DNA of 64,000 nt from NCBI RefSeq assembly GCF_003387475.1, contig NZ_QUNO01000016.1, positions 62,001 through 126,000 of the forward strand, in the 5' to 3' direction. How positions within the stretch are numbered: position 1 is the first letter of the stretch; every line of letters begins with the position of its first letter. A program made the translations under genes and the position numbers. The notes beneath the pieces were generated by a model. The model saw nothing but the letters and a program-made list of their open reading frames with translations. It did not search any database and was not told the DNA's origin. Below, piece by piece: positions 1,523-64,000 of this stretch. This stretch comes from Kutzneria buriramensis. Lineage in GTDB: Bacteria > Actinomycetota > Actinomycetes > Mycobacteriales > Pseudonocardiaceae.

Positions 1523-1563
1523 GGGTCGTCCCCATTCATCCTGGCACTGTGGCGGCAGCGCTT

Positions 1564-1577
1564 TGACAACGTTGTCA
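1564..1577. promoter_or_regulatory. LacI-family-type operator upstream of the GH59 gene
   Basis: TGACAACGTTGTCA is a perfect 14-bp palindrome with a central CG, the usual layout of LacI/GalR-family operators. It lies 42 bp upstream of the GH59 start and overlaps the likely promoter, so sugar-dependent repression is inferred. No LacI-family gene is in the window. Confidence 0.65.
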
Positions 1578-1634
1578 CGTCGTTCGCACCTCCCATGCTG
1601 CCGGGCGCTCAGGACCCGAACAAGGTTCACCCGT

Positions 1635-2288: not shown

Positions 2289-2310
2289 GGGAACGATCTT
2301 AGGATGGGGC

Positions 2311-3891
2311 ATGGACTTCGACGCGGTGGTTTTCGGCGCGGGGCACAACGGGCTGGTCGCCGCGAACCTGCTGGCCGACCGGGGCTGGCGGGTGCTCGTC
2401 CTGGAGGCGGCTGATCACCCGGGCGGCGCGGTGGTCAGCGCCGAGGTGACCGCCCCGGGGTTCGTCACCGACCTGTGCAGCTCCGGCTTCCCGATGACCG
2501 TCGCGTCACCGGTCTTCGCGGACCTCCGCCTCGAACGGCACGGCCTGCGCTGGCGGCACGCGCCGGACGCCCTGGCCCACGTCCTCCCGGACGGCCGCGG
2601 CGTGACGTTGTCCCGTGACCTCGACCGGACGGCGCAGTCCGTCGCCGAGTTCGACCCACGCGACGCCGACGCCTGGCGGCGCATGCACGAGCAGTGGTTG
2701 ACGGTGCGAACTCCGTTGCTGGAGGCCCTGTTCCGGCCGTTCCCGCCGATCGCCCCGGCCGGCCGGCTGGTTCGGGCAGCCGGCACCGCCGAAGCGCTGC
2801 GTCTGGCACGGATGCTGACGTTGTCGGCGCGGCAGATGGCGTCCGAGAACTTCACCGGCGAGGGCGCGCGGCTTCTGTTGGGCGGCAACGCGATGCACGT
2901 GGACGCCGGCATCGACAACGCTGGCAGCGGCGTGTTCGGCTGGATGCTGGCGATGATCGGCCAGGAACTCGGCTATCCGGTGCCCGAAGGCGGCGCCGGC
3001 AAGATCACGGCGGCGCTGGTGCGACGGCTGGAATCCCTTGGCGGGCAAGTGGAATGCGGCCGCCGCGTCACGGAAGTGCTGATCGCCCGCGGCACTGCCG
3101 TCGGCGTCCGGGATCACGAGGGCACGGCCATCCGGGCCACCAGGGCGGTGCTCGCGGACGTCGCCGCGCCGCAACTCTACGGCGACCTCGTTGGCGCGGA
3201 ACACCTTCCGTCCCGGCTGCTCGACGATCTGAAGCGATTCCAGTGGGATCCCGCCACCATCAAGGTGAACTGGGCGCTGTCCGGCCCGATTCCCTGGGCG
3301 GCAAAGGAAGCCGCCGGGGCAGCGTTCGTGCACGTCGGCGGCGACATGGACACCATGTCGGGCTGCTGCGCGGACATGGCAATCGGCCGCACGCCGCGCA
3401 ACCCATTCCTGCTGCTGGGGCAGACCACCACCGCCGACCCGTCCCGCTCCCCCGCCGGCACCGAGTCCGCGTGGGCTTACACCCATGTGCCGCAAGGACA
3501 ACGCTGGACCAGGGACCGCTCGACGCGGCTCGCGGACAAGATCCAGCAGATCGTCGACAAGCACGCCCCCGGCTTCGCCGACCTGATCATCGGCCGGCAC
3601 GTGCAGGGCCCGGCGGACTTCGAGGCCGGCAACGCCGGCCTGGTCGACGGCGCGCTCAACGGCGGCACGTCGGTCATCGCCCAACAGCTGATCTTCCGCC
3701 CGACGCCGGGGCTGGGCCGTGCTGACACCCCCGTCGACCGGCTCTACCTGGCCAGTTCCTCCGCGCACCCGGGCGGCGGCGTGCACGGCGGTCCCGGCGG
3801 CAACGCCGCCCGGGCGGCGATCGCCCGCGACACGTGGGGCGTCGCGTACAAGTCGGCGATCGGCGCCGCCCACCGCCTCATTCACGGTTAG
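2311..3891 (+). CDS. FAD-dependent phytoene-desaturase-like oxidoreductase
   Basis: 526 aa. The ATG at 2311 has AGGATGGGG just upstream. The N-terminal dinucleotide-binding fold reads VVFGAGHNGLVAANLLADRG, with E/D residues for the ribose further on (VLEAADHPGGA). The C-terminal flavin motif is SSSAHPGGGVHGGPGGNAA, typical of CrtI/PYROXD2-like amine-oxidase-fold proteins. No carotenoid genes are adjacent, so phytoene is not implied; the substrate is unknown. It is divergent from the HAD gene, with starts about 20 bp apart, and is followed by a strong hairpin. Confidence 0.85.
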   Translation: MDFDAVVFGAGHNGLVAANLLADRGWRVLVLEAADHPGGAVVSAEVTAPGFVTDLCSSGFPMTVASPVFADLRLERHGLRWRHAPDALAHVLPDGRGVTLSRDLDRTAQSVAEFDPRDADAWRRMHEQWLTVRTPLLEALFRPFPPIAPAGRLVRAAGTAEALRLARMLTLSARQMASENFTGEGARLLLGGNAMHVDAGIDNAGSGVFGWMLAMIGQELGYPVPEGGAGKITAALVRRLESLGGQVECGRRVTEVLIARGTAVGVRDHEGTAIRATRAVLADVAAPQLYGDLVGAEHLPSRLLDDLKRFQWDPATIKVNWALSGPIPWAAKEAAGAAFVHVGGDMDTMSGCCADMAIGRTPRNPFLLLGQTTTADPSRSPAGTESAWAYTHVPQGQRWTRDRSTRLADKIQQIVDKHAPGFADLIIGRHVQGPADFEAGNAGLVDGALNGGTSVIAQQLIFRPTPGLGRADTPVDRLYLASSSAHPGGGVHGGPGGNAARAAIARDTWGVAYKSAIGAAHRLIHG

Positions 3892-3960
3892 AAAACCTCA
3901 CATTCACCAAAACCGGTTGTGTATCAGGACATCCGGCAAGACGGGCACGACCTCGCGACG

Positions 3961-3988
3961 CCCGGGACGGCGACCGCACCGTCCCGGG
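3961..3988 (+). terminator. Hairpin terminator after the desaturase-like gene
   Basis: Perfect 10-bp stem CCCGGGACGG / CCGTCCCGGG with an 8-nt loop, about 70 nt after the stop codon. There is no T run, as is common in actinomycetes. It separates the oxidoreductase from the lectin gene. Confidence 0.6.
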
Positions 3989-4036
3989 TAGCGGCCCCCT
4001 ACGGTCGGCCCTGGGGGAACTCACCGGGAGGTTGCC

Positions 4037-4519
4037 ATGAAACGACTGCTCGCCGTGCTCGCAGCGGCACTAGCGTTCGCCGCCGTCACCGCGACACCGG
4101 CGTCCGCCGAGCCGCCGATCCGCGAGATCCACCAGGCCGGCACGCAGAACTGCATCGACGTCGCCGGCGCCGACAAGGCCGACGGTGCCACGATTCTGAT
4201 GTACCCGTGCACCCACGGGTCGAACGAGCGCTGGCAGTTCCGGTCGACCGGCGACGGCTACTCGCAGGTCATCGCCATGCACAGCGGCAAGTGCCTGGAC
4301 GTGGCCGGCGGCTCCATAAGCGACTACGCGAACATCATTCAGTACACCTGCGACGGCGGCGATAACCAGCGCTGGCGGTACGTGCAATCGGGTCAGTACC
4401 TGAAGCTCCAGGTCAAGCACAGCCAGAAGTACCTGGACGTCCACACCCGCACCGACAATCTGCGGCACGCCGAGCAGGACTACGTCGGCATTCTCCTCGA
4501 GGACTATCCCTCGGCCTGA
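4037..4519 (+). CDS. Secreted ricin-type beta-trefoil lectin (CBM13-like)
   Basis: 160 aa. The ATG follows GGGAGG at 5-nt spacing. A signal peptide (KR, hydrophobic core, cut near ASA-EPP) precedes a single RICIN-type domain. It has the repeated CIDVAGADKADGA / CLDVAGGS and ERWQF / QRWRY (QxW) motifs, and a third degenerate repeat near YLDVHTR. No catalytic domain is attached, so it is a stand-alone extracellular sugar-binding protein. Together with the glycosidases in this region it suggests a role in binding galactose-containing glycans. That role is inferred. Confidence 0.85.
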   Translation: MKRLLAVLAAALAFAAVTATPASAEPPIREIHQAGTQNCIDVAGADKADGATILMYPCTHGSNERWQFRSTGDGYSQVIAMHSGKCLDVAGGSISDYANIIQYTCDGGDNQRWRYVQSGQYLKLQVKHSQKYLDVHTRTDNLRHAEQDYVGILLEDYPSA

Positions 4520-4538
4520 CTCACCGCGACCGCAGCGA

Positions 4539-5156
4539 TCAGTGCACGCCCCGTGGCCGGAACTGGACGCTGATCCGCGGCCCGACCGGCCGCGCGGTCT
4601 TGGGCACGGAGTGTTCCCACGTGCGCTGACACGTGCCGCCCATGACGATCAGGTCGCCGTGGCCGAGCATGTGTCGGATGCTCTCGCCGCCGCCCCGGGG
4701 ACGCAGCAGGAGCGCGCGCGGCGCTCCGAGCGACACGATGGCCACCATGGTGTTGTCCACCAGCCGGCCGCTGTTGTCGCCGTGCCAGGCGACGCTGTCG
4801 TGGCCGTCGCGGTAGTAGCACATGCCGACGGTGCGGAACGGCTCCCCCAGCTCCGGTCCGTAGTGCTCGGTGAGGGCGGCCATCGCCTGGTCCAGCACGG
4901 GATCCGGCAGCGGGACCTGCTCCCGGTAGAAGCACACCAGCCGGGGCACGTCGACGATCCGGTCGTACATCTGGCGGCGCTCGGCGTACCAGGGGACGTG
5001 GCCGACGAGCCGCTCGAACAGCAGGTCCGCGCCGGTGAGCCAGCCCGGCAGCACGTCCACCCACGCGCCGTCGGTCAGCTCCGTGCGGCGGACGCGGGTC
5101 AGCGGCCCGAGCGTGGGCGCCTCGGCCTGATCGAACAGAGAAGCTTGCAACGCCAT
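4539..5156 (-). CDS. AlkB-family Fe(II)/2-oxoglutarate dioxygenase (alkylated nucleic-acid repair)
   Basis: 205 aa from the ATG at 5156. The double-stranded beta-helix core carries the iron ligands H125 and D127 (WHGDN) and H182 (WEHSVPK). The 2-oxoglutarate/substrate motif RISVQFR spans R194 to R200. N-terminal VCFYRE and MCYYRDGHDSVAWHGD match the nucleotide-recognition region of AlkB proteins. It should oxidatively remove alkyl groups from DNA or RNA bases. A perfect LexA box sits 13 bp before the start codon, which points to SOS induction and supports a repair role. Confidence 0.9.
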   Translation of the reverse strand: MALQASLFDQAEAPTLGPLTRVRRTELTDGAWVDVLPGWLTGADLLFERLVGHVPWYAERRQMYDRIVDVPRLVCFYREQVPLPDPVLDQAMAALTEHYGPELGEPFRTVGMCYYRDGHDSVAWHGDNSGRLVDNTMVAIVSLGAPRALLLRPRGGGESIRHMLGHGDLIVMGGTCQRTWEHSVPKTARPVGPRISVQFRPRGVH

Positions 5157-5169
5157 ACACCCGACACTA

Positions 5170-5185
5170 TCGAACGCCTGTTCGA
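5170..5185. promoter_or_regulatory. LexA (SOS) box for the AlkB-family gene
   Basis: TCGAACGCCTGTTCGA matches the actinobacterial SOS consensus TCGAAC-N4-GTTCGA at every defined position. It lies between the AlkB start (5156) and the end of the upstream FAD-monooxygenase gene, so it can only serve the AlkB-family gene. Confidence 0.85.
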
Positions 5186-5204
5186 ATAGCCAGCGATTCG
5201 AGTC

Positions 5205-6404
5205 TCAGGCGGTGGCCCCGGAGTCCGGCAGCCCCGCGTAGTCGGGCAGCTCGACGCCGTTGAGCGCGCGCTCGACCAGCGCCATCAGCGCCTCCATGTC
5301 GGGCTCCGGGCTCGGCTCGGCGTCCGGCCCGGGTGCCTCGCGGCTCTGCACGTGCAACCGGCCGATCTCCTGGTTGGCCTCGACGAACGACCGCATCCGC
5401 GCCTCGTAGGCGGCGAACCCGACCTCCGCGTCCCACCCGGCGGCGGCCAGCTCGCCGGCCAGCAGGTAGGCGCCGATCAGGGCCAGCCCGGTGCCCTGCC
5501 CGGACATCGGCGACGAGCTGAACGCGGCGTCGCCGATCAGCCCGACCCGGCCGCTCGACCAGCGGTCCATCACCACCTGCGCGACCTGGTCGAGGTAGAA
5601 GTCCGGAGCGTCGTCCAGGTGCGCCAGGATGCGCGGGGTCAACCAGCCGAAGCCGTCCATCCGCTCGCGCAGCAGGCGTTTCTGGGCCTCGACGTCGCGG
5701 TGGTCGACGTCGAAGTCGGCCGCTGGGAAGGAGAACATGGCCATCGCCCGGGTGGCGTCCGGGATGGGCCGCAGGCCGGCGGAGCGCCCGGACACCTGGT
5801 CCTGGTAGTCGATCACCCAGCGGTCCAGCTCGAACTCGTTGGGCACGCTGTAGAAAGCCAGCACGAGCCCGAGGTGGCGGACGAACTGCTCGCGCGGCCC
5901 GAAGACCATCTCGCGCGTCGCCGAGTGCAGCCCGTCCGCCCCGATCACCAGGTCGAAGCGCCGCCGGCCGCCGCCGGCGAAGGTCACGTCGACGCCGCCC
6001 GCATCCTGGGTGAGCTCGGCGATCCGGTCGCCGAAGACGTACTCGACGCCGTCGCGGGTGTCGTCGTAGAGCACCTGGGACAGGTCCCCGCGCAGGATCT
6101 CGATCTCGGAGATGTACCCGTCGCCGCCGTCGTCCTCCGCGCTGAAGGTCTCCAGCACGTTCCCGTCGACGTCCACGGTGTGCGCGCCGGCGGTCTTGGT
6201 GCGGGCCGCGCGCACCGCCGCGTCCAGCCCCATCCGTTGGATGACGTCCTTGGTCACGCCGCGCGCGTCCACCGCCTGCCCGCCCGGGCGCAGCTCGGGG
6301 GCCCGCTCCACCACGGTCACCTCGGCTCCCCGGCGGCGCAGCCAGTGGGCCAGCGCCGGCCCCGCGATGCTCGCGCCGGCCACCAACACCTTGGTACCGC
6401 TCAC
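5205..6404 (-). CDS. FAD-dependent aromatic monooxygenase (UbiH/TetX-like fold)
   Basis: 399 aa. The GTG start overlaps the stop of the upstream APH gene by 4 nt (GTGA). The N-terminal FAD fold is VLVAGASIAGPALAHWLRRR, and the second FAD motif is GLIGDAAFSSSPMSGQGTG. A DG-type motif occurs in FDLVIGADGLHSATREM. This is a group A flavoprotein monooxygenase using NAD(P)H. The family covers polyketide hydroxylases and antibiotic-inactivating enzymes. Coupling to an APH-type kinase makes a detoxification pair conceivable, but the substrate is unknown. Confidence 0.8.
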   Translation of the reverse strand: MSGTKVLVAGASIAGPALAHWLRRRGAEVTVVERAPELRPGGQAVDARGVTKDVIQRMGLDAAVRAARTKTAGAHTVDVDGNVLETFSAEDDGGDGYISEIEILRGDLSQVLYDDTRDGVEYVFGDRIAELTQDAGGVDVTFAGGGRRRFDLVIGADGLHSATREMVFGPREQFVRHLGLVLAFYSVPNEFELDRWVIDYQDQVSGRSAGLRPIPDATRAMAMFSFPAADFDVDHRDVEAQKRLLRERMDGFGWLTPRILAHLDDAPDFYLDQVAQVVMDRWSSGRVGLIGDAAFSSSPMSGQGTGLALIGAYLLAGELAAAGWDAEVGFAAYEARMRSFVEANQEIGRLHVQSREAPGPDAEPSPEPDMEALMALVERALNGVELPDYAGLPDSGATA

Positions 6405-7324
6405 TTCGCCCCCTGCTCACCGGTCCCGATCACTGTCCGGATCGTACAGTTGTCGACGATCTCGCCGAGGATGCGACGCGCGTCCATCGCCTCCTCGTCG
6501 GTCCGGCCGACGGTCTGAGCGCAGGCGACCAGCGTCTTCCACAGCGCCCACCCGCGGCCGCGCGCCCACGTCGCGTCGTCGACGGCCAGGCGCTCGCGGA
6601 ACGCCTGCCGGCCTTCGGCGGTGAGCAGCGTCCAGGCAATGGCCAGGTCACAGGACGGATCGCCGACGCCGGAGGTCCCGAAGTCGATCACCGCCGTCAG
6701 CGCGCCGCCGTCCACTAGGAGGTTCCCCGGCGCGATGTCGCCGTGGAACCAGACGTCCACGCCGTCCCACGGCGTGTCCAGCGCGGTCTGCCAGATCTCA
6801 CGGGCCAGGGCGACGTCGACGTGGCCTCCGAGAGCCGTCAACGCGCGCTGCGCCAGCCCGTCGTAGGTGCGCAGGGTCGCGCCGCGGAACCAGTTGTGCT
6901 TGCCCGGCTGCGGACCGTCGGCGGTATCGACGCTCTGCAAGGCAGCCAGAAACTCGGCCAGGTCGAGGGCGAAGCGGACGGGGTCCGCGATACGGCCCGC
7001 GTCGGCGGGTTCTCCTCGCAGCCATTGGTAGATCGACCACGGGAAGGAGTAGTCCGCGCCGGGCTTTCCCTGTGCCAGCGGCACAGGGATGGGCAACGGC
7101 AGTTGTGTGGCGAGCGCCGGCAACCATCGCTGTTCCTTCTCCACTGCCAGGGCGTACTCGGACGCGGTCGGCAGCCGCACCACCATGTCGTCGCCGAGGT
7201 GGAAGGTGACGTTGTCCCAGCCGCTCTTGGCGACCGGCCGCACCGGAAGGTCGGCCCACTGCGGGAACTGGTCGCCGATCAGCCGACGCGCCTGCTCGGC
7301 GTCGACGGTGATCCGCCGGGGCAT
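6401..7324 (-). CDS. Aminoglycoside phosphotransferase (APH)-fold kinase
   Basis: 307 aa from the ATG at 7324 (MPRRITVDAEQARRLI). The Brenner motif WFHGDIAPGNLLVDGG supplies the catalytic aspartate and the metal-binding asparagine. IDFGTSGVGDPSCDLA supplies the second metal-binding aspartate. The N-lobe contains the expected nucleotide loop and a lysine/glutamate pair (VVRLP; AVEKEQRWL). It resembles the subgroup that phosphorylates macrolides, aminoglycosides or sugars. The gene is translationally coupled to the downstream flavin monooxygenase and divergent from the GNAT gene. Confidence 0.82.
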   Translation of the reverse strand: MPRRITVDAEQARRLIGDQFPQWADLPVRPVAKSGWDNVTFHLGDDMVVRLPTASEYALAVEKEQRWLPALATQLPLPIPVPLAQGKPGADYSFPWSIYQWLRGEPADAGRIADPVRFALDLAEFLAALQSVDTADGPQPGKHNWFRGATLRTYDGLAQRALTALGGHVDVALAREIWQTALDTPWDGVDVWFHGDIAPGNLLVDGGALTAVIDFGTSGVGDPSCDLAIAWTLLTAEGRQAFRERLAVDDATWARGRGWALWKTLVACAQTVGRTDEEAMDARRILGEIVDNCTIRTVIGTGEQGAK

Positions 7325-7418
7325 GGGACCGAGATCCGGTGTAGTGGTCAACTGCGGGATCCTCGCGTGGTAGGGAGAGTCGAGACCTGGACGATAGATC
7401 CTCGGAAGGAGGCGGGCA

Positions 7419-8432
7419 TTGGGAATTCCGCGCGTCAGCCCGTTCGACCCGGACCGTGCAGGCCAGGCGCGGCTGGAGGAGTTCGCCGCGCTGGTGTTGG
7501 CCAGCCGGGCCGTGGACTGGCCGGACACCCCGCAGCACGCCACCGCCGAGATGATCATCAGGCGGATGTGTGTCCCGAATCCCGGCGAGGGAGAACGGCT
7601 GCGCTGGGCCGCCTACGTCGGCGACCGGATGGCCGGCTTCATGGTTGCCGTCCTTCCCGAGGACGGACATGACGGCGGGGTCGAGCTCACGGTGCATCCC
7701 CAGTTCCGCCGGCTCGGCGCCGGCACTGCGTTGCTGCGGACGGTCCTTGCCGTGCTGGGACAACGCGGTCGCGCGACGATCGAGGGCTGGTGGATCGCCG
7801 CCGACGGCGTCGGCGAACGCTGGGCTCGGAGACGGGGATTCCGCCGCACCCACGCGACCGTGATCCAGAATCTCTCGCTGCCCGACGCGGATGTGTCGTC
7901 GGCGGCCCGAACGCCGGCCGGCTATCGGATCGTGGAGTGGGTGAACCACGCGCCGGAGGAGCTGGTCGTGTCGTACGCCGCCGCGCGCCGGGCGATCGAG
8001 GATGCCCCGGTCGGTGAGTCGTCCTTCGCGGCCCCGGACTGGACCGTCGAACGCATCCGCCGCATCGAGGCCGAACAGCGCGAAACCGGCGTCGAGCAAC
8101 ACGTCGTCGTCGCGGTGCACGAGGCGACCGGAGAGGTCGTCGGCTTCACCGAGGTCGAGCTGAGTCCCGCCAGCGAGGACGTCGCCCACCAATACGACAC
8201 GGCGGTTCTGGCGGCCCACCGAGGTCACGGGCTGGGCCTGCACATCAAGGCGCGCATGGCCGAGCGGCTGCGCGCCGAGCGCCCCGAGATCACCCGCGTC
8301 ACCACGTCGACCGGCAGCGACAACACACACATGATCCGGGTCAACACCGCGCTCGGCTATGTCGTCTCGCACAACCTGGTCGTGCTGACCGGAGAGGTGG
8401 ACGCTATTTCGGTTGACGCCGTTGGCGAGTAG
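7419..8432 (+). CDS. Tandem-domain GNAT acetyltransferase
   Basis: 337 aa. The start is TTG, chosen because a strong GGAAGGAGG lies 6 nt upstream. Two GNAT domains lie in series. The first (about 1-145) has the acetyl-CoA motif HPQFRRLGAGTALL; the second (about 165-337) has AAHRGHGLGLHIKARM. The double-GNAT layout is like that of MshD (mycothiol synthase) and of several actinobacterial N-acetyltransferases, but I do not see enough to call mshD. The stop lies inside the start region of the next gene, so the two are probably co-transcribed. Confidence 0.8.
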   Translation: MGIPRVSPFDPDRAGQARLEEFAALVLASRAVDWPDTPQHATAEMIIRRMCVPNPGEGERLRWAAYVGDRMAGFMVAVLPEDGHDGGVELTVHPQFRRLGAGTALLRTVLAVLGQRGRATIEGWWIAADGVGERWARRRGFRRTHATVIQNLSLPDADVSSAARTPAGYRIVEWVNHAPEELVVSYAAARRAIEDAPVGESSFAAPDWTVERIRRIEAEQRETGVEQHVVVAVHEATGEVVGFTEVELSPASEDVAHQYDTAVLAAHRGHGLGLHIKARMAERLRAERPEITRVTTSTGSDNTHMIRVNTALGYVVSHNLVVLTGEVDAISVDAVGE

Positions 8433-10113
8433 CCCGGAATGTGGCGCGGTGCTTCCAGTCGAGGTGTGCGCGGCGTTCGGGGTGGCGGCCGATTCCGCGG
8501 TCCGGCTGCCCGGCGGGGCGGGCGAATGCTGGCGCGCCGGCGGGCTTGTGCTCAAGCCCGGTCACAGCCTGGCGGCGGGCTCGTGGCTGGCCGAGGTGTT
8601 CGCCGACCTCAGCGGGCCGGGTTTCCAGGTGCCGCGGCCGGTGCGCGCCGCGGACGGTTCGTGGGTGGTCGACGGCTGGGCCGCGTGGACCGCCCTCGAC
8701 GGCGAGCCGGCCCCGGTCAAGCGCTGGCCGGAACTGGTGACGGCGACTCGCGGGTTCCATGCCGCCCTGGCCGGCGTGCCTGCGCCGCGTTGGGTGGGTC
8801 GCCGCCGGGACCGGTGGGCGGTCGCCGATCGCGTGATCTGGGAGGGCGTGAACGTCGACGTCGCACCGGAATTGGCCGATCTGGTCGACGCGCTGATGGC
8901 GGCCTGCCGGCCGCTGCGGCTGCCGTCCCAGCTGGTGCACGGCGACATCGCGGGCAACGTCCTGTTCGCCGACGGGCAGCCGCCGGCCGTGATCGACTTC
9001 TCGCCGGGGTGGCGGCCGGCCGGTTATGCGCTGGCGGTGGCGGCGGTCGACGTCCTGGCGTGGTCGGCCGCGCCGCCCGACATCCTCGACGAGCTCGCCG
9101 ACGACGAGGAGATCGATCAGCTCCTGCTCCGCGCCCTGGCGTGGCGCCTCGTCACCGAGTCGCTCGGTCGGACCGACGCGGACAGTCGGCGAGCGGTCCG
9201 CCGGGCGAACGAGCCGGTGGTGGACCTGCTGCTGTCCCGCGTCGCCGGCCGGCCCCCGACCATTGCGCCGATCACCGACCGCGACCTCGCCGAGTCGACA
9301 AGCCGCCTGCTGGGCTGCGAGATCACCGGCCTGCGGCCGGTCAGTGGCGGTCACAGCCGGGCCGTGACCCGGCTGGCCGATCGAGCCGACGGCGGCACAG
9401 TGTTCGCCAAGGCCGGTTCTGAGCTTGAGGTCACGGTGTACGAGGCGCTGAGCGGCAGCTCGTTCCTCCCGAGGCAGTTGGCGGCCACCAGGGAGCCGGT
9501 GCCCACGCTCGTGCTGGAGGCGCTGGATCCGAGCGGCTGGGTCCACGAATGGACACCACAGCTGATCGACGCCACCCGCGGCCTGCTGCGCGAGGTGCAT
9601 GCCCTGACCGTGCCTGGCGTTCCGGCGCTGGGAGCCGTCGCCAATCCGTGGGACGCCATCGCCGCCGATCCGACCCGCCTGCTCCGCATGCTCGTCTGCA
9701 CCGACGAATGGCTGTCCAAGCATCTGGACACCCTGCGCGCGGCGGCCGCGACCGCGCCGACCGCCGGCGAGAGCCTCATCCACCGTGACGTCCGCGCGGC
9801 CAACCTGTGGTGCCAGGGCGGGCGGCTCGTGCTCGTCGACTGGGCGTCGGCGGCGATCGGCGACCCCTGGCTGGACCACCACCTCTGGCTGGTCGCCGTG
9901 CACGCCGAGGGTGGCCCCGCCCCGGATGCCGCCGAGGGACCCCACGCGGCCGGTCACGCGGCGTTGATCGCCGGCCAGCAGCCCCTGCTCACGCCGTCAC
10001 GGGACGCCGATCCGGAGCTGTTCGCCCAGCGTCGCCGGCGACTGGAGGTCGCCCTGTCGTGGGCCGCCCGCCGGCTGGACATCGCGCCGCCCTACCAGGG
10101 CAGGCCCACGTAG
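8413..10113 (+). CDS. Fused double APH-fold protein (two phosphotransferase domains)
   Basis: About 566 aa from a TTG at 8413 that overlaps the GNAT gene by 20 nt; a TTG at 8422 is equally possible and no clear ribosome site is visible. The first domain (about 1-275) resembles the actinobacterial TIGR02569 group, with VHGDIAGNVLFADG and VIDFSPGWRP. The second (about 290-566) is another APH fold, with IHRDVRAANLWCQGG and LVDWASAAIGDPWLD. Both Brenner motifs and both DxD-type aspartates are kept, so both lobes look catalytically competent. Substrate unknown. It converges on pobA with a 22-bp overlap. Confidence 0.75.
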   Translation: MTPLASSPECGAVLPVEVCAAFGVAADSAVRLPGGAGECWRAGGLVLKPGHSLAAGSWLAEVFADLSGPGFQVPRPVRAADGSWVVDGWAAWTALDGEPAPVKRWPELVTATRGFHAALAGVPAPRWVGRRRDRWAVADRVIWEGVNVDVAPELADLVDALMAACRPLRLPSQLVHGDIAGNVLFADGQPPAVIDFSPGWRPAGYALAVAAVDVLAWSAAPPDILDELADDEEIDQLLLRALAWRLVTESLGRTDADSRRAVRRANEPVVDLLLSRVAGRPPTIAPITDRDLAESTSRLLGCEITGLRPVSGGHSRAVTRLADRADGGTVFAKAGSELEVTVYEALSGSSFLPRQLAATREPVPTLVLEALDPSGWVHEWTPQLIDATRGLLREVHALTVPGVPALGAVANPWDAIAADPTRLLRMLVCTDEWLSKHLDTLRAAAATAPTAGESLIHRDVRAANLWCQGGRLVLVDWASAAIGDPWLDHHLWLVAVHAEGGPAPDAAEGPHAAGHAALIAGQQPLLTPSRDADPELFAQRRRRLEVALSWAARRLDIAPPYQGRPT

Positions 10114-11255
10114 TTCTCGGCGATGCTGGTCATGGCGGCGGTGCTGCTGACGGTGTAGCGCAGCTGGGCGAGCTGCACCTGGCGCTGGAACGCGTCCGCG
10201 CCGGGCATCACATGCAGCATCGACGTCATGGTCCAGGAGAAGGCCTCGGCCCGCCACACGCGGCGCAGCGCGGTGTCCGAATAGGACTCGATGAGTCGGG
10301 AGTCGTTGCGCCGGAGCAGTTCCGTCAGGGCCATCGACAGCAGCCGGACATCGGCGACGGCGAGGTTCATGCCCTTGGCGCCGGTCGGCGGCACGATGTG
10401 GGCGGCGTCGCCGGCCAGGAACAGCCGGCCATGCCGCATCGGTGTGGCGACGAAGCTGCGCATGGCGGTGATGCCCTTGTCCAGAACCGGCCCCTCCAGC
10501 ACGGGACTCTCGCCGGCCACGGCCATCCGGGTGTGCAGCTCCGCCCAGATGCGGTCGTCGGGCCAGTTCGCGATGTCCTCGTCCGGGGCAACCTGGAGGT
10601 AGAGCCGGGTGATCTCCGGCGACCGCATGCTGTACAGGGCGAACCCACGTTCGTGGTGCGTGTAGGCGATTTCCTCCCGGGTGGGCGCGGCCTTGGCGAG
10701 AACGCCCAGCCACGCGAAGGGGTACGTGTGGTCGTAGGCCTCGTGCGGCACGGATTTTCGGCTGACGCCGTGGAAGCCGTCGCAGCCGGCGACGACGTCG
10801 CAGACCAGCTCCTGCGGTTGGCCCGCGGAATCCGTGAAGGTGATGCGCGGGCGGTCGGTGTCGATGTCGTGCACGGCGGTGCCGCTCACCTCGAACAGCA
10901 GCCGGCCGCCATCGCGGTTGCGGGCGTCGATGAGGTCCTTCACGACCTCCTGCTGCCCGTAGACGGTGACGTTGCGGCCGATCAGCTCCTCGAAGGCGAT
11001 GCGGTGGTCGGCGCCGTCGAAGCGGAACGAGACGCCGCCGTGCACCAGGCCCTCGCGGTCCATGCGCTCGCCGAGGCCGACCTCGCGGAGCAGGTCGGTG
11101 GTGGTGTTCTCCAGGACGCCGGCGCGCACGCGCTGCCGCACGTAGTCCTCGCTGCGCTCCTCGATGACCACGGACTCGATGCCGTTCAGGTGCAGCAGAT
11201 GCGACAGCAGCAGCCCGGCCGGACCGGCTCCGATGATCCCGACCTGTGTCCGCAT
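10092..11255 (-). CDS. pobA: 4-hydroxybenzoate 3-monooxygenase
   Basis: 387 aa, near the usual 390-395 of PobA. The ATG at 11255 follows GGGAGG. Landmarks are the N-terminal FAD fold VGIIGAGPAGLLLSHLLHL, the RQRVRAGVLE substrate-loop region, the DG motif CDVVAGCDGFHGVSRKSVP, and GDAAHIVPPTGAKGMNLAVAD. It converts 4-hydroxybenzoate to protocatechuate with NADPH and O2 and feeds the beta-ketoadipate pathway. The ring-cleavage genes are not in the window. It is divergent from an IclR-type gene with a palindrome between them, as is usual for regulated pob loci. Confidence 0.93.
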   Translation of the reverse strand: MRTQVGIIGAGPAGLLLSHLLHLNGIESVVIEERSEDYVRQRVRAGVLENTTTDLLREVGLGERMDREGLVHGGVSFRFDGADHRIAFEELIGRNVTVYGQQEVVKDLIDARNRDGGRLLFEVSGTAVHDIDTDRPRITFTDSAGQPQELVCDVVAGCDGFHGVSRKSVPHEAYDHTYPFAWLGVLAKAAPTREEIAYTHHERGFALYSMRSPEITRLYLQVAPDEDIANWPDDRIWAELHTRMAVAGESPVLEGPVLDKGITAMRSFVATPMRHGRLFLAGDAAHIVPPTGAKGMNLAVADVRLLSMALTELLRRNDSRLIESYSDTALRRVWRAEAFSWTMTSMLHVMPGADAFQRQVQLAQLRYTVSSTAAMTSIAENYVGLPW

Positions 11256-23625: not shown

Positions 23626-23964
23626 GTGACTGACGGCGCGCTGCGGGAGCCGACCTTCCTCGTCCTCACCGCGCTCGCCGCCGGACCCCGGCACGGCTAC
23701 GGGATCCTGCTCGAGGTCGAGCAGATCTCCGCCGGCCGGGTCCGGCTGCGCGCGGGGACGCTGTACACCGCCCTGGACCGGCTCGTCGCCGACGACTGGG
23801 TGGCGGTGGACCGCGAGGAGGTGGTCGACGGCCGGCTGCGCCGCTACTACCGCCTGACCGACCAGGGGGCGGCCAGGCTGGCGACCGAAGTGGACCGGAT
23901 GCGGGCCAACACCCGCGCCGCCGAGACGCGCCTGCGGGCGCGCTTTGCTGGAGGGACGGCGTGA
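23626..23964 (+). CDS. PadR-family transcriptional regulator
   Basis: 112 aa from the GTG at 23626. The winged helix begins LREPTFLVLTALAAGPRHGYGILLEVE, followed by AGTLYTALDRLVADDWV (recognition helix) and RRYYRLTDQGAARLATE (wing). A short C-terminal helix for dimerisation makes it a PadR subfamily 2 protein. Its stop overlaps the next start by 4 nt (GTGA), so it is coupled to the two membrane proteins. PadR proteins commonly repress adjacent membrane or transport genes. Confidence 0.9.
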   Translation: MTDGALREPTFLVLTALAAGPRHGYGILLEVEQISAGRVRLRAGTLYTALDRLVADDWVAVDREEVVDGRLRRYYRLTDQGAARLATEVDRMRANTRAAETRLRARFAGGTA

Positions 23965-24084
23965 GCGAGACCCAGGAGCGGCGCTTACGGCGGCTGCTCG
24001 CCCTGTACCCACGCGATCACCGCGAAGCCCACGGCGAGGAGATGCTGGGGGTGCTGCTGGACAGCTCCCCCGGCTGGCGCGACG
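23954..24084 (+). repeat. Direct repeat, copy 1 (start of first membrane paralogue)
   Basis: A 131-bp segment spanning the ribosome-site region and the first 41 codons recurs 926 bp downstream with only 3 mismatches. Similarity falls off sharply after this block. Confidence 0.9.
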
Positions 24085-24890
24085 GCCTGAACCTGGTCGG
24101 CGGCGCGATCGCGCTGCACGCACGCCGGCTGCTCGGACTGGACGGCGGTGTCAACCGGCGCGACGTGCTGGCAGTGGTCGGCCTGCTGGGCCCGCTCATG
24201 ATCCTGACCGCCGCCGTCGGCGACCTGCACGAAGTCGCGTGGTTCACCAAGAACGGCGGGCTCGCGGACATGCCGCTGTCGCAGGTCCCGGACGCGCCGG
24301 TGTGGGCGGTCTGGCTGGTGGTGGCGGGGCTCGTTCTGTTCGGCCTGCGCCGGACCGCCGCGGTCTTCGCCTGGCTGGCCGACATCGTGCACCTCGTGAT
24401 CCCCTATAAGGCCAGCAACTGGACGTGGAGCTACGAGAGCAAGGGCTGGCTGCTGCTCGGCCTGGTCACCGCGATCGCCCTGACGTGGTCGGCCGGTCCG
24501 GCGCGCGGCCGGAAGCTGGTCGGCCGCCGCGGCATCGTCCTCACCCTCGCAACTGTCGCCGTGGCGATGTCGTGCCAGCTCTTCGCGCCGCGTTTCGTCA
24601 TGATCGGCCGCTGGCCGCTCGACATGTCGGAGTGGCTGGTCTACCTCGCGCTGGCGGGCGGCGCGTGCCTCGCCTGCCGGTCGGTTCCAAACCGTAGGAC
24701 GGGCCGGCGTGCGGCATTCGTGCTCGCGCTGCCGGCCGTGGCCTTCGCGCTGGAGTACGTCGAAGTGACGATCATCGGCCCGCCGCTGTACTGGGTGCCG
24801 GCCGTCGAGGCAACCGTGCTCTACGGCATTCCGGTCCTGTTGGTGTTGGCCGGCAATGGAGTTCTCCGTCCAATCAGGAGGACGGCGTGA
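23961..24890 (+). CDS. PadR-operon membrane protein, paralogue 1
   Basis: 309 aa; the GTG overlaps the PadR stop. The cytosolic N-terminal domain RRLRRLLALYPRDHREAHGE continues with EEMLGVLLD and a WRDGLNLVGGAIALHARR segment. This N-terminal signature is frequent in actinobacterial membrane proteins next to PadR genes. About seven or eight hydrophobic helices follow (LLGPLMILTAAVGDL; VWLVVAGLVLFGL; AFVLALPAVAFAL). Function unknown; an envelope or transporter-accessory role under PadR control is inferred from context. It is a tandem duplicate of the next gene. Confidence 0.8.
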   Translation: MSETQERRLRRLLALYPRDHREAHGEEMLGVLLDSSPGWRDGLNLVGGAIALHARRLLGLDGGVNRRDVLAVVGLLGPLMILTAAVGDLHEVAWFTKNGGLADMPLSQVPDAPVWAVWLVVAGLVLFGLRRTAAVFAWLADIVHLVIPYKASNWTWSYESKGWLLLGLVTAIALTWSAGPARGRKLVGRRGIVLTLATVAVAMSCQLFAPRFVMIGRWPLDMSEWLVYLALAGGACLACRSVPNRRTGRRAAFVLALPAVAFALEYVEVTIIGPPLYWVPAVEATVLYGIPVLLVLAGNGVLRPIRRTA

Positions 24891-25010
24891 GCGAGACCCA
24901 GGAGCGGCGCTTACGGCGACTGCTCGCCCTGTACCCACGCGATCACCGCGAACGCCACGGCGAGGAGATGCTGGGGGTGCTGCTGGACAGCTCCCCCGGC
25001 TGGCGCGACG
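24880..25010 (+). repeat. Direct repeat, copy 2 (start of second membrane paralogue)
   Basis: Second copy of the 131-bp repeat, 3 mismatches from copy 1. It includes the GTGA coupling site, so the duplication carried its translational signal with it. Confidence 0.9.
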
Positions 25011-25786
25011 CCGTCGACCTGGTCGGCGGCGCGATCGCCCTGCACCTGCGCCGCCTGTTCGGTCTGGACGGCCAGGTGCGGCGTCGGGACGTGCTGTCGG
25101 TCGTGAGCCTGCTGGGCCCGATCGTCATCCTGGCCGGGGCGGCGGCCGACGTCCGCGAGGCGGCCTGGTGGCTCCTGCACGACAATATGGAGCCGCTGCC
25201 GACCTGGTACGTCCCGGACGCGCCCGCCTGGGGCGCCTGGCTGGTGGTGGCGTTCCTGGCGTTCTTCGGCCAGCGGCGGGCGGCAGCGGTGTCGGCATGG
25301 CTGGCGCTGGGTGCGTTCGTGGTCGTCACCCCCATCCTGAGCCAGGGCTACCTGCTGCGCTCCGCGGGGGCGGGCTACCTGGTGCTGGGCGCGTTCACGG
25401 CGGTCGCGCTCACCTGGTCGCCGGGACCGGTTCACGGTCGGATGCTGGCCGGGAAGTGGGCTGTGCCGCTCGCCTTCGGCGGCGACGCGCTGGTGTTGGC
25501 CGCCATGGTCTTGCACAGCATGATGTTCGCGTGGTGGCTGGCCTTCGCCGCGATGGCGCTCACCGCGCACCTCGCCTGCCGCGCGGTGCGTGACCGCCGG
25601 ATCGGGCGACGGGCGGCGCTCGTGCTGGCGCTGCCGCCCGTCACCTTCATCGTCGAAGCGTTCGCCGGCCCCTGGGCGTACGGGAATCCGTACCTCAGGG
25701 ACATCGCCTTCTACGGTCTGCCCACGCTGATCGTGTTGCTGGGCATGGGGATTCTCCGCCCGGTCAGGAGGCGGCAGCCGAGCTGA
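24887..25786 (+). CDS. PadR-operon membrane protein, paralogue 2
   Basis: 299 aa; the GTG overlaps the previous stop by 4 nt. The first 40 residues are almost identical to paralogue 1; the membrane part (about 65-299) is similar only in layout. Both end in a basic tail after G(M/N)G(I/V)LRP. About eight helices are predicted. It converges on the alpha/beta-hydrolase gene with a 23-bp overlap. The pairing suggests a heteromeric membrane complex or a recent duplication kept by gene conversion at the 5' end. Confidence 0.8.
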   Translation: MSETQERRLRRLLALYPRDHRERHGEEMLGVLLDSSPGWRDAVDLVGGAIALHLRRLFGLDGQVRRRDVLSVVSLLGPIVILAGAAADVREAAWWLLHDNMEPLPTWYVPDAPAWGAWLVVAFLAFFGQRRAAAVSAWLALGAFVVVTPILSQGYLLRSAGAGYLVLGAFTAVALTWSPGPVHGRMLAGKWAVPLAFGGDALVLAAMVLHSMMFAWWLAFAAMALTAHLACRAVRDRRIGRRAALVLALPPVTFIVEAFAGPWAYGNPYLRDIAFYGLPTLIVLLGMGILRPVRRRQPS

Positions 25787-26555
25787 GGAGCTCGTGCAGC
25801 TGCGCGGCGAACTCGACCGGATGTTGGAGGTAGCCGAGGTGGCCGCCAGGGAACTCCACGACGTCCACGCCGAGCCGGTCGGACAGCACCTCGTTCGGCC
25901 GGTACGGCAGGAGCCCGCGCGACTCGACACCACTGGCCAGCACGAGCTTGCCCTTGCTGTCGGCGAGCGCGTCCAGGTCGAGCTCGTGCCGGGGGTACTG
26001 GCGCAGCTCGTGCTCCATCCAGAACGACACGTTGAACGCCATCCGCTCGAACATCTCCCGCACGACCGGCGGCAGCTCGGCCGCGGGCGGCGTCGGGGCC
26101 TCGCCGCCCAGGCCGACCTCCTTGCGGAACAACGCCATCGCCACGTCCGGGCCATCACTGCGGAACAGGTCGTAGACGCGGTCCATCCGGGCCAGCCAGT
26201 CGTCGCGGTCCGGCAGCACGGAGATCAGCGGCGGCTCGTGCGGCACGGCCAGTTGCACCGCCGACGGGTACTTCGCCAGCAGCTCCAGCGTGACGATCGC
26301 GCCGGAGCTGCTGCCGACCACGTAGCCGGGCTCGTCGCCCAGCAGCTCCCGCGCGTCCTCGACGTCGGCGGCCAGGCGGTCGGCCGGGATCGCGTCGATC
26401 GGGCTGCGGGCGAAGCCGGCACGGTCGTACAGCACCACCGTGTACCGGTCGGCCAGCTGCGCCGCCGCCTGCTCGAACACGGTGCTGTCGCCGTTGCCGC
26501 CGACGACGAACAGCAGCGTCGGTCCGCTGCCGATTCTCTTGGTGTACAAGCTCAC
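25764..26555 (-). CDS. Alpha/beta-hydrolase
   Basis: 263 aa from the GTG at 26555, with GAGGGGG just upstream; it overlaps the TetR-gene stop (GTGA). The oxyanion region is LLFVVGGNGDSTVFEQ, the nucleophile elbow is GYVVGSSSGAIVTLELL (GxSxG), and the catalytic histidine lies in PGGHLGYLQHPVEF. This matches small actinobacterial hydrolases under TetR control. Substrate unknown. Confidence 0.85.
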   Translation of the reverse strand: MSLYTKRIGSGPTLLFVVGGNGDSTVFEQAAAQLADRYTVVLYDRAGFARSPIDAIPADRLAADVEDARELLGDEPGYVVGSSSGAIVTLELLAKYPSAVQLAVPHEPPLISVLPDRDDWLARMDRVYDLFRSDGPDVAMALFRKEVGLGGEAPTPPAAELPPVVREMFERMAFNVSFWMEHELRQYPRHELDLDALADSKGKLVLASGVESRGLLPYRPNEVLSDRLGVDVVEFPGGHLGYLQHPVEFAAQLHELLSSAAAS

Positions 26556-27774: not shown

Positions 27775-28974
27775 TCAGCGCGGGACCACGTCCACCGGCA
27801 GCTTTCGGACACTCACGATCATCGCCGGATTCTGGAACTCCACCGGCTCGCTCCGGGCCACGGAAAGCCCAGCATAGCGCCGGTTGAGCGCCTCGAAGGC
27901 GATCCGCCCCTCCATCCGCGCCAGCGGCGTGCCGAGGCAGAAGTGGATGCCGTGGCCGAATGTCAGATGCGGATTCGGCGTACGGGTGAAGTCGAAGCTC
28001 TCGGCGTCGGCGAAAACGCGTGGATCCCGGTTCGCGGACGCGATGTTGGCCATGATGATCGAATTGGCGGGAATCGTGCGGCCGCCCAGTTCCACCTCCG
28101 TCGTGGTGCGCCGGCCGAGCTCGTTGAACGGGGGCAGGCAGCGCAGCACCTCCTCCAGCGCCACCGGAATGCCCGACGGGTCCTCGCGCAGCGCCGCGGC
28201 CGCCGCGGGGTGCCGGTCGAGGCTGATGGTGGCGTTGCCGATGAGCGCGGTGGTGGTGATGTGCCCGGCGACCAGCAGCAGCGCCACGAAGCCGACCATC
28301 TCCTGGTCGGCCAGGCTCTCGCCGTCCACCGAGGCCCGGCACAGCTTGCTGGTCAGACCGTCGCTGGGGTTGGCGCGGTGGTACTTGATGTGCGCCAGCA
28401 TGTACTCGTTCATCTCGCGGATGGTCGGCGCGATCATCTGAAGCGCCGCCTCGATCTCCGCCATGGTCGAGTTCTCGGTCAGCTGGTCGCCGCTGAACAG
28501 CACCTTCGCCCACTTCTCGAACAGCTCCCGGTCCTGCGCCGGGATGCCGAGCAGCTCGGCGATCACCAGGATCGGCAGCGGATAGGCCAGCGCCTCCACC
28601 AGGTCGAACCGCCGCTGCCCGGCGACGGCGTCCAGCAGCTCCTCGGTGATCTGGTGGATCCGCGGCTCCAGGCCGGCCACCGTGCGCGGGGTGAAGGCCT
28701 GGCTCACCAGCGTGCGCAGCTTGCGGTGGTTGGGCGGGTCCATGGTGAGGAACATGCCGGTGCGGAACGCCTCGAAGTCCTCCTGCACGGGGGCCAGCCC
28801 GGAGAAGTCGCTGGAGAACGTGCCCGGCTCGGACAGCACGCGGGAGACGGTGGCGTGGTCGAGCAGCCGCCACATCCCGTTCTCCTCGTCGAGGTAGACG
28901 GGCTCGACGCCGCGCCGGTCGATCCAGTGGTCCAGGCGTTCCTCGAAGGCGTAGCGGGGCGGCGCGAGGGTCAT
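27775..28974 (-). CDS. Cytochrome P450, likely tailoring enzyme of the NRPS product
   Basis: 399 aa. The ATG overlaps the MFS stop by 4 nt (ATGA). The I-helix reads LLLVAGHITTTALIG, a variant of the A-G-x-x-T oxygen-activation motif. The K-helix ExxR is EEVLR. The heme loop FGHGIHFCLGTPLAR has C346 as ligand. Size and motifs fit soluble bacterial class I P450s, which need external ferredoxin; none is encoded nearby. Its place at the end of the NRPS operon implies hydroxylation or cross-linking of the peptide or of a carrier-bound residue. The target is unknown. Confidence 0.92.
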   Translation of the reverse strand: MTLAPPRYAFEERLDHWIDRRGVEPVYLDEENGMWRLLDHATVSRVLSEPGTFSSDFSGLAPVQEDFEAFRTGMFLTMDPPNHRKLRTLVSQAFTPRTVAGLEPRIHQITEELLDAVAGQRRFDLVEALAYPLPILVIAELLGIPAQDRELFEKWAKVLFSGDQLTENSTMAEIEAALQMIAPTIREMNEYMLAHIKYHRANPSDGLTSKLCRASVDGESLADQEMVGFVALLLVAGHITTTALIGNATISLDRHPAAAAALREDPSGIPVALEEVLRCLPPFNELGRRTTTEVELGGRTIPANSIIMANIASANRDPRVFADAESFDFTRTPNPHLTFGHGIHFCLGTPLARMEGRIAFEALNRRYAGLSVARSEPVEFQNPAMIVSVRKLPVDVVPR

Positions 28975-30298
28975 CGGGTGGGCTCCTTGACTCGATCGGT
29001 GGCGGGAAACGCGCGCATGGTGGGGCTGACCGTGACGACCACGGTGATCAGGGCGATGCCGGCGGCGCACAGCAGGATCGCGTCGGCGCCGCCGAACTGC
29101 TGCACGAGCACGCCGCCGAAGGCCGGGCCGGTGGCGGCGGATGCGCCGGCGATCACGGCCATCACGCCGGTCATCCGGCCGCGCAGGCGATCCGGCGTGA
29201 GCAGCAGCTGCGACGTGCTGATGGTGGTGTTCGCGGTCGGCGGCAGCAGGGCCATCGCGGCGAACAGCAGGCCGAGCAGGTAGCCGTTGTCGATGAAGAC
29301 GGCGAGCGGTGTCAGTCCCGCGAGCACCCAGAACACGCCGGCGATGGACAGGTACGGGCTGAGCATCCGTTGCAGCGTCGGGGCGAGCAGCGCTCCGAGC
29401 AGGCCACCGACGCCGAGCATCGCCGCCATGATGCCGATCTCGCCGGACGGGACGCCGCGTTCCTTGGCCAGCACCACGAGGATCACGTAGTAGGCGGAGA
29501 AGAAGAAGTTCAGGCTGACCGCGCAGGCGACGGTGGCGCGGACGTGCCGCTGGCTCCACACCCAGCGCAGGCCCTCGACCATTTCGCTGATGAGATGCCC
29601 GCTCTCGTGCTGTTCCGGGCGTTTGTACGGCACCCGCACGAACAGCAGGGCACCGAAGCTGATCGCGTGCGTGACCACCTCGACCGCGAACGGCACCGCC
29701 CGACCGATCGCGTAGAGGAAACCGCCGACGGCAGTCCCGGTGAGCTGCCCCAACGCCCCACGCGCCGAGTTCATCGCCACGGCCGTGGGCAGTTGTTCCT
29801 GCGTCACGATCTGCGCCACCGCGGCGTTTTCCGCCGGCAGGAACAGCGCCCGGCACACGCCCATCGTCGCCGCGACCAGGATCATGTGCGGCACCGTCGG
29901 CGTGTTCAGCCACAACGCGATGACGAGGCTGGCGACCGCGATGCCCTGTGCCGCCTCGCAACACAGCATCACGACCTTGCGGTTCCAGCGGTCGACGAGC
30001 GCTCCGGCGGGCAGGCCCGCGATCAGCTGGGCCGCCGCGTCCACGCCCAGCACGAAACCGGAGACGGCGGGCGAGCCGGTGACCGCCAGGACGAGCAGTG
30101 GGAAGGCGATCATCGAGCCACTGAAGCCGGCGGTGGAGAGAGCTTGGCCCGCCCAGAGCAGACGGTAGGAACGGCTCATCGCCGGACGCCGGCGCTTGGG
30201 TGCGGCATCGGGGTCACTCGCAGCGGTCGCCCGCGGCCCGGACGCTGTCGCCTGCGGGTCGGTGGCGTTCGGCTGCGTCCGTGTCGGGTCGCGGCGGT

Positions 30299-30302
<4 letters not shown>
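28971..30302 (-). CDS. MFS exporter, probable export of the peptide
   Basis: 443 aa. The ATG overlaps the NRPS-B stop by 4 nt. A hydrophilic N-terminal tail of about 40 residues, rich in Thr/Pro/Ala, precedes the first helix ([18 protein letters not shown]); an internal Met (MSRSYRLL) could be the true start. Twelve hydrophobic helices are expected. [14 protein letters not shown] is the MFS loop 2-3 motif, and [14 protein letters not shown] is its repeat in the second half. It resembles the MFS_3/enterobactin-exporter-like group. Its position implies self-protection or product efflux. Confidence 0.88.
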
Positions 30303-48625
<18,323 letters not shown>

Positions 48626-48648: not shown

Positions 48649-49899
48649 TCAGCGGCGGGCGGCGACACGGCCGCCGGTCTGCAGGCCGTGGATCCGGCCG
48701 GTCGACGGGTCGCGCAGGAAGCGGCCGCCCAGCACGCGCCGGCCGGATTCCGGCTCCAGCACGGAGAACGCCCAGTCGCGGTGCACCGTCAGCTCCGGGT
48801 ACAGCTCGCCGCCGACGCGCAGCACGCCGTCGCCGGCGTCGACGAAGTACTCCATGTCGCCGTTGGCGTAGCTGCCGGTCAGCCCCGCCGGCATCGGCAT
48901 CTCGTCGTGCCGCTGCGACAGGTCGTAGTCGGCCACGTCCAGGCCGAGTTCGCGGAGCCGGCCGACGAGATCCACCCACAGCGCCGCGCCGGACACGGCG
49001 TTGGTGGTCAGGGCCACCACCTGGCCGCCGGTCGGGTTGATGCGCAGGTGGCAGGAGGTGCCGTCGGCGGTGCCGTCGTGGCCGACCCAGCCGTCGAACA
49101 CCGCGAGGCCCAGTCCCCAGCCGTTGGCCAGTCCAAAAGGGACGACGCCGGGCACCTGGCGGCGCATGGTGCGCAGCAGCTGCGGCGACAGCGGGCCGTC
49201 ACCGGTGACGTGCATCAGCCCGAAGGTGACCAGGTCCTCGGCGCTCAGCGCCAGCGCACCGGCGCCGGCCTCGACCTCCGACAACGTCTGATCCACCGGC
49301 ACGCCGCGACGAGCGTGGCCGGTCACGAAGGTGTCGGTGGACCGCTTGCCGCCCGGCTCGACCGTGAACGCCGGCTCGATGCCCAGCGGCGTCAGCAGGA
49401 GGGCCTCGACGGCCTCCCACCAGTCCATGCCGGTGATCTCCTCCACGAGCCGCGACAGCAGCACGTAGCCGACGTTGGAGTAGGAGAACCCCACGCCGGG
49501 GCGCAGCACCAGCTCCGCGTCCCGGCAGGCGCGTAAGTACTGGCGCGTCGAGGAGTTCTCGCCGGCCACGGCGGCCGGCAGGCCGCTGGTGTGGCTGAGC
49601 AGCTGCCGCACGGTCAGCTCGCCCACCCGCGGCCCCAGGTCCCCCAGGTGCTCGGCGAGCCGGTCCTCCAGGTCGAGATCGCCGTCCGCGACCAGCAGCA
49701 TCGCCAACGTCGCGGTGAACGGCTTGGTGATCGATCCGATCGGATACTTGCCGGCGGCGCCGACGGTGATCGTCTCGCCGCCGGTGTGCACCGACAGCTG
49801 CGCCGCCGGCACCCCGTGGCGGTCGACCAGTCCCGACAGGGTGTGTTCGAGGCTGGTCTTGTCCACAACGGACCGGATCGTCGCGGCGGACGAGGTCAC
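48649..49899 (-). CDS. Candidate trans-acting PBP-type thioesterase (SurE-like peptide cyclase)
   Basis: 416 aa from a GTG with GGGAGGG upstream. There is no signal peptide, so it is cytosolic, unlike resistance beta-lactamases. The serine-hydrolase fold has S56-I-T-K59 (SxxK), Y140-S-N142 (YxN) and H274-D-G. A C-terminal lipocalin-like domain (about 330-416; [19 protein letters not shown]) follows. Family knowledge: SurE and its relatives are stand-alone penicillin-binding-protein-type thioesterases, encoded beside NRPSs that end in an E domain without a thioesterase; they offload and macrolactamise peptides with a C-terminal D-residue. This gene lies inside exactly such an operon, between MbtH and NRPS-B. 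A class C beta-lactamase-like resistance protein is the alternative. Confidence 0.82.

Positions 49900-50180: not shown

Positions 50181-64000
<13,820 letters not shown>

Follow-up and report, generated by a model that had tools for sequence, protein, structure and literature searches.

The gene studied here, encoding a thioesterase (TE) of the penicillin-binding protein (PBP) type, is located in a stretch of 64,000 nucleotides of Kutzneria buriramensis, hereafter the window (C16:62001-126000 of a genome of 11,968,322 bases in 65 contigs). It is part of a same-strand gene series in the order NRPS-A, mbtH, TE, NRPS-B, MFS and P450, that is, two non-ribosomal peptide synthetase (NRPS) genes with the mbtH and TE genes between them, followed by genes for an exporter of the major facilitator superfamily (MFS) and a cytochrome P450. 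The location of the TE gene between mbtH and NRPS-B, proposed in the initial annotation, was confirmed. Features and their coordinates are shown in Table 1; the first 3.5 kb of NRPS-A fall beyond the window.

The open reading frame occupies exactly the tabulated positions, starts with GTG and is preceded by a ribosome-binding-like stretch, GGGGAGGGA. Orthologues with 89-91% identity were present in four other Kutzneria genomes, and dN/dS was 0.12-0.25 for all 10 pairs among the five Kutzneria orthologues; the gene is therefore under purifying selection and is no chance reading frame. The nearest TEs of this type found outside Kutzneria were ~61% identical to the window protein. A simple hydropathy scan, which is heuristic, revealed no hydrophobic stretch at the N-terminus, and the TE, a stand-alone protein, is probably cytosolic.

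Table 1. Positions of the TE, its motifs and the accompanying genes within the window. A, adenylation; C, condensation; T, carrier; E, epimerisation domain.
Feature	Position	Strand	Remarks
PBP-type TE (putative peptide cyclase)	48649..49899	-	416 aa; homology, alignment, tree, structure model
S56-I-T-K59 (nucleophile and SxxK lysine)	49723..49734	-	Aligns with SVTK of SurE and Ulm16
Y140-S-N142	49474..49482	-	Aligns with YSN of SurE and Ulm16
G214 (C-terminal D-residue pocket)	49258..49260	-	Aligned with SurE Gly235; invariant in 23 aligned sequences
H274-D-G	49072..49080	-	Aligns with HDG of SurE and Ulm16; H274 invariant in 23 aligned sequences
C-terminal lipocalin-like beta domain (predicted), ~residues 336-416	48652..48894	-	AlphaFold2 model strands; tail search
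MbtH-like protein, 66 aa	49956..50156	-	Pfam PF03621, E=2.8e-21
NRPS-A, 5762 aa, partly in the window	50181..64000, on to equivalent 67469 (C16:129469)	-	A-T/CATE/CATE/CATE/CAT
NRPS-B, 6108 aa	30299..48625	-	CATE/CAT/CATE/CAT/CATE
Terminal E domain, module 10, HHVVVDG motif	30311..31594	-	No thioesterase behind
MFS exporter	28971..30302	-	Pfam MFS_1; start 30302 (overlaps NRPS-B) or 30179, uncertain
Cytochrome P450, likely tailoring enzyme	27775..28974	-	Pfam p450

Family and catalytic residues of the thioesterase

Membership of the SurE family, as first proposed from the sequence, was borne out by comparison with solved structures: SurE was the best relative (E=3e-71, residues 36-413), followed by Ulm16 (5e-49), with the next at 1e-18, and the catalytic motifs of both enzymes aligned with those of the window TE. 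The protein belongs to PF00144, and the class C beta-lactamase equivalog model scored it at 61.6 bits, the cut-off of 415 not being reached. In a tree of 39 against 20 rows, built quickly and with SH-aLRT support but without bootstrap, it grouped with SurE and Ulm16 (SH-aLRT 99), apart from the 20 other beta-lactamase-family proteins of the genome. Identity as a beta-lactamase or D-peptidase was rejected on the similarity to SurE and Ulm16, this score and the tree.

The catalytic tetrad of the family consists of Ser, Lys, Asn and His (PMC11735501). All four, together with the tyrosine of the YxN motif, are present in the window TE by alignment to SurE. Across the window TE and 22 relatives (23 aligned sequences), S56, K59 and Y140 were invariant, and N142 was replaced by T in three. 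The small size of SurE Gly235 makes space for the D-side chain (PMC11735501); the match to G214 presupposes that the numbering of the crystallised chain and that of the native protein differ by 20. G214 would be consistent with a large C-terminal D-residue and is no proof of one, because it is invariant in all 23 sequences, including that of K. viridogrisea, whose module 10 has a different code.

When the C-terminal tail alone was compared with the PDB, SurE was retrieved at 3.4e-6 and one further chain at 0.98; the alignment with the IS11 esterase also reached the last residue of the window TE. A two-domain fold is predicted by the AlphaFold2 model. As judged from its sequence, the window TE is an orthodox SurE-type cyclase, an enzyme type already described, and what is known of this class is unchanged by the present finding.

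Assembly line and related clusters

The two NRPS genes encode ten modules, five each. Domains were called with motifs and hidden Markov models built from these same ten modules, and Pfam confirmed the AMP-binding domain at the start of NRPS-A and the PP-binding and condensation-fold domains at the end of NRPS-B. That NRPS-B ends in an E domain with nothing behind it, and that the operon lacks a thioesterase, had been claimed initially and held in both respects: the Pfam condensation-fold match stops 2 residues short of the terminus of NRPS-B, with no thioesterase match there, and no Pfam Thioesterase (PF00975) was detected in the operon, against 33 matches genome-wide. One of these is on the same contig (C16:138816-139196, window-equivalent 76816-77196); it belongs to another gene, encoded on the opposite strand ~9.3 kb past the start of NRPS-A.

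Module 1 is A-T, without an E domain and without an acylating C domain, and module 10 ends in an E domain; the first residue is therefore predicted to be L and the last D. By domain order, the decapeptide would have the chirality L-D-D-D-L-D-L-D-L-D.

Pocket codes, each taken with an assumed final K, were DALLIGSVV (module 1), DVFSVAIVY (2), DAYFWGVTF (3), DAYWWGGTF (4), DALLIGAVV (5), DT(E/L)DMGFVD (6), DFWNIGMVH (7), DA(E/W)NVGLVD (8), DAYWWGGTF (9) and DALLIGAVV (10), where the two letters given for modules 6 and 8 (position 239) reflect alternative placings of a one-residue gap. Using a numbering of code positions that we take to be the customary one, modules 6 and 8 are presumably basic (Orn/Lys-type) and modules 1, 5 and 10 presumably hydrophobic. 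The codes DAYWWGGTFK and DAYFWGVTFK are assigned to Val, and DFWNVGMVHK to Thr (PMC9113097); on this basis modules 3, 4 and 9 are assigned to Val and module 7, through a near variant code, to Thr. The code of module 2, DVFSVAIVYK, has its first half in common with piperazate codes (PMC9866976, PMC3943440).

To describe the conservation of this layout, 23 clusters were compared, namely the window and 22 clusters around family members, in sets of 10 and 12; four single 20-kb stretches (G175, G277b, G048 and G082b) were kept apart from this count. The last NRPS ended in an E domain in all 23, with at most 12 aa behind it, and the NRPS ahead of the TE likewise terminates in E in G277b, G048 and G082b. 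A start of A-T followed by C was found in 21 of the 21 clusters with a visible start (not visible in G003 and G142). The five-module NRPS-B was a single gene in 21 of 23 clusters, being split in the gene calls of G001 and G003, and NRPS-A had five modules in 12 clusters and three in nine, and could be read only in part in G003 and G142. For control, five further multimodular NRPS genes were inspected in the regions of the set of 12: four carried 280-305 aa past the last T domain, and the fifth ended in T, just ahead of one of those four. Both control tails tested were Pfam Thioesterase domains.

Among the best 80 of 94 named loci, a co-directional NRPS gene lay within the flanks in 75, the remainder being L087, where an isolated A domain is seen at the margin, L090, L094, L097 and L121; the gene caller missed the TE gene in six of the named loci. 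The A-T-C start was seen in 54, and two A-T-E starts (L088, L124) are fragments. Of 297 genomes sampled from the bacterial family of the window, 100 gave a match to the TE at E<=1e-45, with six candidates scored per genome.

Four clusters from other genera, with ~60% identical cyclases, have nearly the pocket codes of Kutzneria; where the cyclase falls to ~50% identity, the ten-module layout is kept and the codes are changed. The latter is the case of K. viridogrisea (G006, L053-L056), which has the layout of the window with the TE gene (50% identical) ahead of NRPS-A, and whose codes differ at modules 6 (Val), 8, 9 and 10 (DT-DMG-type).

A separate observation concerns module 2 of NRPS-A, which was called C-T-E in nine of the 12 clusters (G223, G128, G171, G260, G239, G112, G267, G091 and G143; L177-L214) and also in named loci such as L092, L095 and L105. 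In G223, the one inspected, the large A core is absent, and a remnant of the C-terminal A subdomain remains between C and T. Lacking its own adenylation domain, a conserved module of this kind has to be either skipped or charged in trans.

Release of the peptide and known systems

Enzymes of this family act in trans and form head-to-tail lactams that join an L-residue at the N-terminus to a D-residue at the C-terminus (PMC11735501). In the window, NRPS-A and NRPS-B would assemble a decapeptide beginning with an L- and ending with a D-residue, which the last carrier domain would pass on to Ser56, surrounded by Lys59, Tyr140, Asn142 and His274; attack of the free alpha-amine of residue 1 on the Ser56 ester would give a head-to-tail cyclic decapeptide, to be exported by the MFS protein and oxidised by the P450. 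Given a free L start, a D end and no TE in the line, loading of Ser56 with the decapeptide, followed by attack of the amine of residue 1, is the simplest account. Family, catalytic residues, gene order, module order and the absence of a TE are read directly in the sequence, whereas we infer the acyl transfer in trans, the ring closure, the ring size and the roles of the MFS and P450 proteins; release by head-to-tail closure into a cyclic decapeptide is very probable.

Hydrolysis of the decapeptide to a linear product is an unlikely outcome. Surugamide F has been isolated as a linear decapeptide (PMC9810689, PMC11012974) and a tetrapeptide substrate of PenA was mostly hydrolysed (PMC11735501); SurE, however, showed no hydrolysis with an AEEA size series and achieves both offloading and cyclisation of the decapeptide of surugamide F (PMC11735501), and the L-first/D-last pattern kept across the compared clusters is a ring-closing one. 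Somewhat less likely again is a side-chain-to-tail closure, in which an amine or hydroxyl of the residue of module 6, 7 or 8 attacks. Module 7 is a Thr module by its code and the pockets of modules 6 and 8 are presumably polar, but only head-to-tail lactams are reported for the SurE family in PMC11735501, and module 1, without an acylating C domain, should leave the amine of the N-terminus free.

It is very improbable that another enzyme releases the peptide, for example the TE domain of a 1110-aa amine oxidase-carrier protein (PCP)-TE-P450 protein or an alpha/beta hydrolase at 25764-26555. Both genes lie no more than ~10 kb from the operon, and four close Kutzneria genomes retain them; neither was found around the other six of 10 related clusters (flanks partial in G142 and G277), so that the type-I TE gene of the contig occurs in only four of the 10, whereas the PBP-type TE is kept in all. 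Release by this nearby type-I TE is disfavoured by that distribution. It is as improbable that the protein only happens to be encoded in the operon and acts in resistance or housekeeping, as a D-peptidase, an esterase or an enzyme like the beta-lactamases. PF00144 and fold relatives (IS11 esterase, D-amino-acid amidase, R61 DD-peptidase, class C beta-lactamases) would point to this, but the equivalog score, the tree, the N-terminus without hydrophobic stretch and the NRPS genes flanking most named loci argue against it.

Several results weigh against head-to-tail release of a decapeptide as read here. In L144, L150 and L151 the NRPS gene behind the TE begins with C-A-T, so that the A-T-C start does not hold throughout, unless these lines have their first gene elsewhere. 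The compared clusters and loci were drawn by similarity of the TE, mostly from Pseudonocardiaceae, and their counts are not independent events. The AlphaFold2 model (23 input sequences) had a mean pLDDT (predicted local distance difference test) of 82.5, with residues 107-116 below 50, and the Foldseek root-mean-square deviation from SurE was large, 6.4-6.6 A across ~440 columns; the domain orientation is therefore unreliable. In modules 3 and 8 the E-domain motif is altered (HHLVVDT and NHLVVDG), and a D-configuration is therefore unsure for residues 3 and 8, though not for residue 10. For six of the ten modules the consulted literature gave no assignment of the pocket code. Finally, a further NRPS line is present in K. 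viridogrisea (8546 aa; G006:C7, oriented 4725-30365 of 120 kb; L226, L056), with an A-T start, an E end and two modules in which no A domain was called, 28 kb before the TE gene. No PBP-type TE was found beside it within the 120 kb examined, and the genome has one match to the window TE at E<=1e-50. Either this cyclase serves both E-ending lines, as it may, or an E end alone does not imply an adjacent TE; one TE serving two NRPS lines has been reported for SurE and PenA.

Among characterized systems, SurE of the surugamides (PDB 6KSU/6KSV) is like the window TE in its PBP and lipocalin-like domains, its catalytic residues, its encoding in trans and its acceptance of a decapeptide. It differs in sequence (~40% identity) and in serving two lines that comprise four NRPS genes, whereas the region read contains one line of two NRPS genes with the TE gene lying between them. 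Ulm16 (ulleungmycin; PDB 8FEK) is 35-39% identical to the window TE and its native substrate is a hexapeptide (PMC11735501). A peptide both longer and more polar than the known examples had been expected from the sequence. Higher polarity is partly indicated, by Thr and two modules with presumably polar pockets, and partly contradicted, by three Val and three presumably hydrophobic pockets. The greater length did not stand: the line has ten modules, but SurE is reported to cyclise the surugamide F decapeptide (PMC11735501, PMC11012974), and novelty by ring size is thereby ruled out.

PenA/CppA of Streptomyces cacaoi (pentaminomycin, BE-18257), compared by description, resembles the window in its stand-alone PBP-type TE, its NRPSs without TE and its L-first/D-last pattern (PMC7827011), and differs in acting on penta- and tetrapeptides and not on larger substrates (PMC11735501). 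The genome of S. cacaoi (G297) has three TE genes of the PBP type, 52, 43 and 42% identical to the window TE, any of which may be that of CppA. One adjoins a line of two NRPS genes with ~six modules, unlike the pentaminomycin line; no NRPS gene was seen beside the other two in the stretches examined, which are near contig ends. The NRPS line at L156, tried as the pentaminomycin line for calibration of Trp and Arg codes, proved to be a different one.

The SurE domain of BifB (biffamycin A) belongs to the same family and differs from the window TE in being embedded at the NRPS end, with a C-terminal Gly and a tetrapeptide (PMC13285481). An in-frame fusion of this kind was also observed at L195 (G175:C2:1418001-1438000), where a PBP-type TE forms the end of a 3020-aa NRPS at 1326-10388 (C-A-T-E-C-A-T-PBPTE), the layout reported for BifB, here in another genus of the bacterial family of the window.

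No product was found in the open-access literature for this conserved Kutzneria gene cluster. Tentatively, it could be one of a family of Pseudonocardiaceae clusters, apparently not described before, for cyclic decapeptides decorated by P450s, with cyclases forming a natural ten-residue branch of the SurE family; in the same tentative reading, the peptide would have Val at three positions, Thr at one, large hydrophobic residues at three and basic D-residues at two. The probable ending of the assembly line is fixed by the present finding, and a testable product prediction is available for the cluster in five close Kutzneria genomes; the cluster, with a diverged cyclase, is also present in other Pseudonocardiaceae. 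SurE-type enzymes serve as peptide-cyclising biocatalysts, and this branch could widen the usable set, because its closest members outside Kutzneria are ~61% and SurE ~40% identical.

Neighbouring genes

In the comparison of 10 related clusters, in which the G142 contig stops inside NRPS-A and G277 covers only ~3 kb beyond NRPS-B, MbtH and MFS genes were each present in all 10, and a P450 orthologue (68-89% identity) followed the MFS gene in nine. The exception was K. viridogrisea, whose P450s in the extended region are only 34-39% identical and at least 4 kb away. Genes for GNAT, TetR and alpha/beta-hydrolase proteins downstream, and those for a fatty acyl-AMP ligase (FAAL) and the amine oxidase-PCP-TE-P450 protein beyond NRPS-A, were seen only in the four close Kutzneria genomes. 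From this distribution, the core unit comprises NRPS-A, mbtH, TE, NRPS-B, MFS and P450. The nearest solved relatives of the operon P450 include CYP107B1 and CYP113A1.

Beyond NRPS-A, window-equivalent 73772-78789 (L001:11772-16789) holds an AMP-binding (FAAL-like) gene followed by the 1110-aa amine oxidase/carrier/thioesterase/P450 chain. Window-equivalent 93496-97341 encodes a 1281-aa protein with AMP-binding, carrier and hexapeptide-repeat regions and no condensation match, which we take to resemble an epsilon-poly-lysine-type synthetase in size and make-up; a gene for an M1 peptidase (window-equivalent 97338-98648) overlaps it, the two genes together spanning L002:11496-16648. At the other side of the operon, the adjacent genes at 23961-24890, which has no Pfam match, and 24887-25786 are similar, with one difference in the first 40 residues.
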